Positions 62,502-64,000 of a stretch of DNA of 64,000 nt are shown one piece after another. Origin of the DNA: Halobaculum roseum (GTDB taxonomy: Archaea > Halobacteriota > Halobacteria > Halobacteriales > Haloferacaceae); contig NZ_CP082286.1 of the NCBI RefSeq assembly GCF_019880245.1, forward strand, positions 1,568,521-1,632,520, in the 5' to 3' direction. The notes under the pieces were generated by a model. The model saw only the letters and a list, made by a program, of their open reading frames with translations. It was not told the DNA's origin and ran no database searches. Numbering within the stretch: position 1 is the stretch's first letter; each line of letters starts with the position of its first letter. Made by a program: the position numbers and the translations under genes.

Positions 62502-63335
62502 CTATACCGCCTTGAGCCGCGGCGCCACGAACGCCTCGACGCGGCCGTCGCCCCCCGAGATGTCGTAGGCGACGCCGAGGGGCGCCTTTCGTCCGAGCGT
62601 GAGCCGCACGTCCGTCCCCGCCGGGATGGCTCGCTCGATGTCGATCAGGTACGACAGCGACAGCAGCGACCCCGCATCGCCCGGCGAGAACGCGACCGCC
62701 TCCTCTGCCGTGACCGTGAACTGCACGTCGTCGGTGTCGCCGTCGGCGGCGGCGACGAACGTCTCGGCGTCCGGGTCGACGCTGAGCGCGAGGTGGTCCG
62801 CGACCATCCCCGCGGCCGTTACGAACCGGCCGACCGTGTCGACCGGGACCGTCAGCGACGCGGTGTGTTCGAAGCCGAGGTCGTCCACGTCGGGCGGCCC
62901 GCGGACGCTGTCGGGGTCGAACAGCCCCATCGCGTACTCCAGGCCGTCGGCGACGACGTGGAGGCGGAACGACTCGGGGTCGAGCGCGAGCGTCACGGGG
63001 TCGTCGCCGGCGACCATCGAGAGGACCTCCTCGAGTCGGGTCACGTCGACGCCGACGACGGTGCCGTCGGCCTCGTAGGACGCCGCGGCCGCAGCGTCGA
63101 GTTCCGCGTCGACCGCCGCGACGGTCGCCGGGTCCATCGCGGCCGCGCGGATGCCGTCGCGGCCGAACGTCAGCCGACACTCGTCGACGAGCGCGCCGAC
63201 CGCCGAGAGCAGTGGCTTCAGGGTGTCCGCCCGCACGCGCACGGACACCGGTACCTCCCCGTCGATGTCGGGCGTCTGTCCCGACTCCGCGTCCGTCTCG
63301 TCTCCCTCGTCGGTCACGGCGCTCGCCTCGGGCAT
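62502..63335 (-). CDS. Divergent second PCNA-family protein
   Basis: A 277-residue homologue of PCNA. After an acidic N-terminal extension of ~28 residues, the two-fold PCNA structure is clear: VDECRLTFGRDGIRAAAMDPATVA, then SYEADGTVVGVDVTRLEEVL, the connector GLFDPDSVRGPPDVDDLGFE, and the C-terminal SLLSLSYLIDIERAIP followed by APLGVAYDISGGDGRVEAFVAPRLK. Canonical PCNA at 39413 matches each block, with many changes in the connector and C-terminal tail where PIP-box partners bind. It may form a specialised clamp or hetero-oligomer. The ATG at 63335 is preferred over 63362: codons between are atypical and an AATACTTA box lies ~30 bases upstream. Confidence 0.88.
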   Translation of the reverse strand: MPEASAVTDEGDETDAESGQTPDIDGEVPVSVRVRADTLKPLLSAVGALVDECRLTFGRDGIRAAAMDPATVAAVDAELDAAAAASYEADGTVVGVDVTRLEEVLSMVAGDDPVTLALDPESFRLHVVADGLEYAMGLFDPDSVRGPPDVDDLGFEHTASLTVPVDTVGRFVTAAGMVADHLALSVDPDAETFVAAADGDTDDVQFTVTAEEAVAFSPGDAGSLLSLSYLIDIERAIPAGTDVRLTLGRKAPLGVAYDISGGDGRVEAFVAPRLKAV

Positions 63336-63362
63336 GGCCGGATCCCGAACGTATCGGCTCAT

Positions 63363-63447
63363 AAGTATTTTTGCAAGCGATCAGGTAGATACCCTGTTTC
63401 CGAGTACAAACATATATGAATCTCGTTTTCATACCTCGTTTTGGATT
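63363..63447. promoter_or_regulatory. Divergent promoter region with palindrome TATGAA-N7-TTCATA
   Basis: This AT-rich gap separates the PCNA paralogue from the next gene. It has AATACTTA on the minus strand (63363-63370) and CATATATG on the plus strand (63411-63418) as TATA-like boxes. TATGAA (63415-63420) and TTCATA (63428-63433) form a palindrome overlapping the plus-strand box, and CTCGTTTT occurs twice (63422-63429, 63435-63442) next to the ATG at 63448. Such a layout fits coordinated, repressible expression of the two divergent genes. Confidence 0.6.
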
Positions 63448-64000
63448 ATGAGCGGCGAACGGGAGCGCGGCGTCTTGAGCCCGGCCGACCGGGCGTACCT
63501 GCGCGGGGAGACGGAGTTCGCGAGCGTGCAGTCCGAGCGCAACGCGCGGGCGCGCATCCGGGACAGGCTTCACGCCGGGCTCTACGACTTCGAACTGCTC
63601 GTCGAGGGGCTCTCGGAGACGGACCGGAAACTCGTGTTCGAGGACCGCCTCGACCGCGAAGGGACGGACGCCTTCGACGCGCTCGTCTCGGCGATGGCGT
63701 TCCTCTACCGCGGGGTCGAGGACACGGACCTGGAGTTCGAGACGGTGCTCGCGGAGGGGATCAACCTCGCGGAGGCGAGCGAGGAGCGCGCGGCGACCGT
63801 CGACCTCGACGTGACGTTCCGCGCGTTGAGCGTCGCCGAGGTGCGCCGGAAGATGCGGGCGGGCGAAACGCTGTCGCTGACGGAACTGGCCTTCGCCGAC
63901 GCGCGCGAAGAGATCGCTCCCGACGAGTTCGCGGAGTACGTCCGCGGCGACGATACGGACGACCGCAGCGTCGACGACGGCCGGATCCAGTCGCGGGTCA
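63448..64000 (+). CDS. Haloarchaeal conserved protein with LSPADRAYL-type N-terminal domain, cut by window end
   Basis: About 184 residues are visible before the edge. The beginning (GVLSPADRAYLRGETEFASVQSERNARARIRDRLHAGLYDFELLVEGL) is a conserved block I know from many haloarchaeal proteins, often encoded on plasmids, proviruses or near regulators; its function is unestablished. The rest is helical and acidic (VFEDRLDREGTDAF, VAEVRRKMRAGETLSLTELA). No membrane helix or known enzyme motif appears. It shares the 112-base intergenic region with the divergent PCNA homologue, suggesting a joint role, which is inference. Confidence 0.75.
   Translation, partial: MSGERERGVLSPADRAYLRGETEFASVQSERNARARIRDRLHAGLYDFELLVEGLSETDRKLVFEDRLDREGTDAFDALVSAMAFLYRGVEDTDLEFETVLAEGINLAEASEERAATVDLDVTFRALSVAEVRRKMRAGETLSLTELAFADAREEIAPDEFAEYVRGDDTDDRSVDDGRIQSRV

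Follow-up and report, generated by a model that had tools for sequence, protein, structure and literature searches.

Halobaculum roseum carries, next to its second sliding clamp gene, a divergently transcribed partner gene, here called NB, and the two form a pair that is conserved across many haloarchaea together with the control region between them. Judged from sequence, we favour with moderate confidence the reading that the pair is a two-gene module consisting of an alternative clamp, PCNA2, and NB, a clamp-binding and self-regulating DNA-binding protein. The pair lies at the end of the window, the stretch of 64,000 nucleotides that was analysed as a whole, and its features are listed in Table 1.

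Table 1 Features of the PCNA2–NB locus and the comparison clamp in the window.
Feature	Position	Strand	Basis or remark
PCNA1, canonical PCNA of the same genome	39413–40156	−	Comparison clamp
PCNA2, second divergent sliding clamp, 277 aa	62502–63335	−	ORF, PCNA matches, AlphaFold2 model
Rewritten interdomain connector loop of PCNA2, part of the PIP-binding surface	62862–62918	−	
Acidic N-terminal extension of PCNA2, 28 aa	63252–63335	−	Composition and predicted disorder
PCNA2 TATA-like box, AAATACTTAT	63361–63371	−	Conserved AT block, −86 to −77 from the NB ATG, 46 loci
Predicted operator op2, TACCCTGTTTCCGAGTA	63390–63406	.	Palindrome at −58/−59 from the NB ATG, 46/46 loci
NB TATA box, CATATATG	63411–63418	+	Conserved TATA block, −40 to −34
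Predicted operator op1, TACCTCGTTTTGGATTA	63432–63448	.	Overlaps the NB start codon
NB, partner gene, 187 aa	63448–64011	+	Last 11 bases outside the window; complete in L003:3969-4532
First part of the PIP-box-like tail of NB, QSRVTDF	63988–64000	+	Remainder past the window end

A second clamp with altered partner-binding surfaces

The first-pass annotation had proposed a second, divergent PCNA with an acidic N-terminal extension and changed partner-binding surfaces, and all three features were borne out. At the search depth used, the genome has two PCNA genes, PCNA1 and PCNA2, which are full paralogues with 44% identity. PCNA2 aligns with the PCNA of Haloferax volcanii over residues 34–275 (phmmer, E = 1e-52), and its PCNA_N match exceeds the Pfam cut-off, with a PCNA_C match that is weak and below the cut-off. 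The best NCBIfam model is that of the archaeal sliding clamp PRK01115, at 197.9 bits versus a cut-off of 207. With this score and with the PIP pocket residues M46, I122 and M239 replaced by A, V and F in the window protein (and variable across PCNA2s), PCNA2 falls outside the canonical haloarchaeal PcnA group (PRK01115 subfamily). The connector loop is rewritten and two residues longer than the canonical one, and the C-terminal tail differs after the residues APR. The N-terminal extension contains 36% Asp and Glu, has no Lys or Arg and is predicted to be disordered. A further in-frame ATG upstream, at 63362, would give a protein of 286 aa; the start at 63335 is favoured because the TATA-like box lies ~27 bp upstream of it. 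The novelty first claimed for a second clamp holds in part, in that the clamp is distinct and altered, but duplicate PCNAs of haloarchaea are already on record in an earlier report (PMC3404096).

An AlphaFold2 single-chain model of PCNA2 (pLDDT 80) superimposes on H. volcanii PCNA (3ifv) at 1.2 Å, with a TM-score of 0.97 by target length, and on this model PCNA2 is a clamp with the two-domain PCNA fold. The same model also matches the crocodilepox late transcription factor 1, a poxvirus protein with a clamp-like fold annotated in transcription (Foldseek E = 8.8e-10). The residues R72, Y106 and D172, used in the published ring interface of H. volcanii PCNA (PMC2737543), are invariant in all 46 PCNA2s and in 66 PCNA1s, and ring formation by PCNA2, either homotypic or with PCNA1, is therefore plausible. 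Within Halobaculum, dN/dS was 0.18–0.67 for PCNA2 versus 0.07–0.11 for PCNA1 (the PCNA1 rows involving genome G006 were left out owing to a wrong-strand artefact). By this measure, purifying selection is weaker on PCNA2 than on PCNA1, and PCNA2 is fast-evolving.

Distribution and co-inheritance of the pair

To map the distribution, 392 haloarchaeal genomes of the order, representing a sample of ~400 out of the larger number existing, were searched with a profile of 11 NB proteins and no PCNA information. Full-length NB was found in 44 of the 392 genomes, belonging to 24 genera and 10 families, with a gap in the search between the carriers (E < 1e-54, one decayed copy excepted) and the paralogues (~1e-31). 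All 47 NBs examined adjoin PCNA2 in divergent orientation, and none of the 18 nearest NB paralogues, which have no PIP-like tail, has a PCNA nearby in the fetched stretches of 4–14 kb. Because the genomes were picked by NB sequence only, the divergent PCNA beside each new NB amounts to an independent prediction, and since the pair is conserved across 24 genera, chance pairing is excluded. Conservation of the gene pair in other haloarchaea, which the first-pass annotation had put forward as a check, thus reaches far beyond a single strain. Its description of the partner as a conserved, regulator-like haloarchaeal gene needs qualifying: the pairing is conserved, but NB is not general, and its PIP-tailed form occurs only beside PCNA2.

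The canonical PCNA is also present in all of the carrier genomes checked (42/42). PCNA2 was found in 5 of the 11 Halobaculum genomes, where the pair has a KH-domain gene on one side and a thermosome gene on the other; the six sister genomes keep both flanking genes, with PCNA2 and NB both absent between them. The pair was also found on a Halomicrococcus plasmid. No third conserved gene around the pair was found among the loci, in which the recurring clusters were the pair itself, the Halobaculum thermosome, g9 and apparent antisense shadows. At one locus (L122:5857-8164, G366), PCNA1 lies directly downstream of NB, giving the order PCNA2, divergent NB and then PCNA1.

Evolutionary distances of NB and PCNA2 are correlated (r = 0.85; partial r = 0.79 given PCNA1; 0 of 1000 permutations), and the corresponding value for NB and PCNA1 given PCNA2 is −0.03. 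This pattern bears on the possibility that PCNA2 joins PCNA1 in mixed rings, as part of a hetero-trimer or as an inhibitor, and so alters or blocks one partner site out of three under modulation by NB. PCNA heterotrimers are known from crenarchaea, and PCNA2 keeps both sides of the subunit interface through R72, Y106 and D172, so that mixing of PCNA1 and PCNA2 is sterically plausible. However, the divergence of NB tracks PCNA2 and not PCNA1, and we regard mixed rings as a somewhat unlikely explanation of the pair, although they could coexist with a two-gene module of clamp and regulator.

A conserved control region with two palindromes

The intergenic region is 85 bp long, with 36% GC versus 71% in the window. 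The first-pass annotation had described an AT-rich region bearing a palindrome and had considered a clamp under its own control; the base composition stands, the palindromes number two rather than one, and the idea of separate control agrees with the clamp's own TATA-like box and the conserved two-palindrome region. The 17-bp palindrome has the consensus TAAYCCGAAACAGATTA. Both op1 and op2 are present in all 46 intergenic regions at a spacing of 42–43 bp, equal to four helical turns, and the mean two-operator score is 18.4 versus −2.5 in shuffled sequences. Counted from the NB start, the blocks follow in the order op1, NB TATA box, op2 and PCNA2 TATA-like box. The two operators frame the NB promoter between both coding starts, and op2 is placed beside the NB TATA box. 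Predicted operators at the gene's own promoter, as autoregulation calls for, were thereby found, with palindromes at fixed positions in 46 of 46 regions and a single one in the close paralogues. Transcripts of the pair probably have leaderless starts.

The close paralogues (L137–L147 and L152), which lack the PIP-like tail, lie in unrelated neighbourhoods with no PCNA near; a palindrome covers the start codon in 11 of these 12 and is located slightly upstream of it in the other. Because op1 is kept at these PCNA-free genes, the NB family and not PCNA is the likely binder of the palindromes, as far as sequence comparison can indicate. These palindrome-bearing paralogues also suggest that small proteins of this self-regulating type make up a broader family. 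Other NB paralogues, on two plasmid records, lie near aminotransferase, BCCT transporter and Rid genes.

Operator scans of the Halobaculum genomes, which allowed zero mismatches to the Halobaculum consensus and which weak sites could escape, returned only the intergenic region of the pair and two strays in the five carriers, and one stray in total in the six non-carriers. With sites essentially only at the pair, the operator appears to be local and self-directed. A genome-wide NB regulon in Halobaculum was rejected on the same zero-mismatch scan, given this restriction of the sites to the pair, and the stray in the H. roseum genome (G000:C1:703018) was discarded as lying inside a coding frame.

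These sites have to be weighed against an alternative in which NB is a PCNA-binding factor of DNA metabolism, for example of repair, that is anchored on PCNA2, with some other regulator occupying the palindromes. The known archaeal PIP proteins are mostly enzymes or repair factors (PMC4929162), and family searches recognised no DNA-binding domain in NB, both of which would suit such a factor. It is nevertheless an unlikely one, given that the palindrome is also found at the start codons of the PIP-less NB paralogues in their unrelated neighbourhoods, that it is missing from Halobaculum genomes without the pair, and that the sole gene common to the palindrome sites is a member of the NB family.

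NB and its PIP-box-like tail

NB belongs to what is, by its sequence relationships, an orphan haloarchaeal family, and its comparison with Pfam, NCBIfam, PHROG, PDB and the anti-phage defence models of PADLOC yielded nothing significant. The N-terminal part of the family is arginine-rich and conserved (DRG.L..aDR.YL.GE....QS.RN...RIR.R....DF). The AlphaFold2 model of NB, built from only three sequences, is mostly helical with a pLDDT of 45 and was unusable for a fold search.

The C-terminus is the part of NB that distinguishes the paired proteins. The tail Q[SA]x[VM]Tx[FY] ends all 47 PCNA2-paired NBs, one of which has a short extension beyond it, and none of the 18 paralogues (Fisher p = 2e-16). 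In the window protein the tail peptide is DDGRIQSRVTDF, and NB is the only protein in its genome that ends in Qxx[VILM]T[DE]F-stop. The FEN1 of haloarchaea, which is a core client of PCNA, has QTGLDDWT or a near variant at its C-terminus, with the same layout. The NB tail is therefore compatible in layout with a terminal PIP box that has one aromatic residue. The NB tails carry the terminal motif Q-x-x-hydrophobic-x-x-aromatic, and their deviations from the strict PIP consensus QxxI/L/MxxFF/Y (PMC2737543) are a residue that is mostly V where PIP boxes usually have I, L or M, and one aromatic versus two. We infer that the tail is PIP-box-like and a candidate PCNA2-binding element. The departure from the strict consensus would also fit a tail that is not a PIP box, such as one that marks NB for degradation or mediates dimerisation, in which case the link to PCNA2 would be regulatory only. 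This is improbable in view of the strict division between PCNA2-adjacent NBs, all of which have the tail, and PCNA-free paralogues, all of which are without it, and in view of the likeness in layout to the FEN1 tail.

Phylogeny and decay of the pair

In the PCNA tree, 43 of the 46 PCNA2s fall in one clade (SH-aLRT 99), and L108, L126 and L128 are placed outside it in the free tree; a single clade for all 46 was not rejected (AU p = 0.41), and the long-branch clamps L018, L019, L189 and L190 are uncertainly placed. That PCNA2 is a captured viral or plasmid clamp with an incidental passenger as its neighbour is very improbable, because, although haloviruses and plasmids carry PCNAs and an earlier duplicate was traced to phage PhiCh1 (PMC3404096), PCNA2 does not cluster with the sampled viral clamps, NB relatives were not found in viral contigs by a pattern-limited search, and the same two genes and their operators persist in 24 genera with no third conserved gene. 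The pair as a chance association is likewise disfavoured.

Other additional clamps were observed in the sample. Four genomes of one genus (L064–L067 in G085, G062, G044 and G076) have a second chromosomal PCNA without NB, which is 60–62% identical to PCNA1, and these proteins branch as sister to the main PCNA2 clade. Genome G002 has, besides its canonical PCNA, three equal-score matches to a very divergent PCNA (L018, L020 and L021; G002:C1:70820, 2786838 and 2807438), perhaps within a repeated mobile element. The third PCNA of G005 (L019, G005:C1:2398343-2399128) is 33% identical to PCNA2 and lies outside the pair.

Broken copies of the pair also occur. At L106 (G154) the PCNA2 frame is split with NB intact, and at L135 (G310:C1:83048-83794) NB, with an internal TAG, and PCNA2 are both decayed. 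The module is therefore dispensable in some hosts.

Proposed mechanism

In the two-gene module that we favour, replication would stay with the canonical clamp. NB, alone or as a dimer, would bind op1 and op2 and in the bound state repress its own promoter; it may also tune pcna2, with op2 possibly acting on the pcna2 promoter. The tail of NB would dock into the PCNA2 pocket, and two options then follow. Free or DNA-loaded PCNA2 could strip NB from the operators, which would create feedback, or NB could be delivered to clamps on DNA. A role of PCNA2 in repair is conceivable. A more specific proposal, in which NB is an operator-binding transcription regulator set by its dedicated clamp through the PIP tail and the state of the clamp on DNA is read out as transcription, is possible but tentative.

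The open-licence literature yielded no description of the NB family, its tail, the operators or the pair, and the unit of clamp and regulator looks to be previously undescribed. Specialised second clamps have been suspected in archaea and are poorly understood, and PCNA2 is accompanied by a partner of its own and a control region of fixed layout. The pair is present in about one in nine of the sampled haloarchaeal genomes, a group with good genetics. With it, one can ask directly whether a transcription regulator and a sliding clamp are able to work as a single feedback circuit in a cell, and what purpose a second PCNA serves.

Comparison with known systems

PCNA2 shares its fold and ring-interface residues with H. 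volcanii PCNA (HVO_0175; 3ifv, 3hi8) and the archaeal PcnA family. In contrast to that clamp, it is always a second copy and has an altered pocket, loop and C-terminal tail, a disordered acidic extension and a dedicated divergent partner. Extra PCNAs in four haloarchaea were described by Lynch et al. in 2012, who raised specialisation as a question (PMC3404096); the Natrialba case among these duplicates is viral, and the accessible part of that paper does not mention a partner gene, a PIP-like tail or operators. Thermococcus kodakarensis PCNA2 (TK0582) is a second, non-essential euryarchaeal clamp (PMC3984812) that is thought to be laterally acquired, and we found no conserved PIP-tailed divergent partner described for it.

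On the side of the partner, TIP, NreA and NucS are archaeal proteins in which a PIP motif is known or possible, and of these TIP is restricted to one lineage (PMC4929162). NB differs from them as a separate family without matches, tailed only beside its dedicated clamp and with operators at its own gene. Coupling between a clamp and transcription has so far been best known from the late transcription of phage T4, in which gp33 and gp55 are transcription factors that bind the gp45 clamp via clamp-binding motifs, terminal in gp55 (PMC7892883). That system belongs to a virus, works on late promoters and employs the replication clamp itself, whereas NB seems to be a regulator that controls its own locus by binding operators there.
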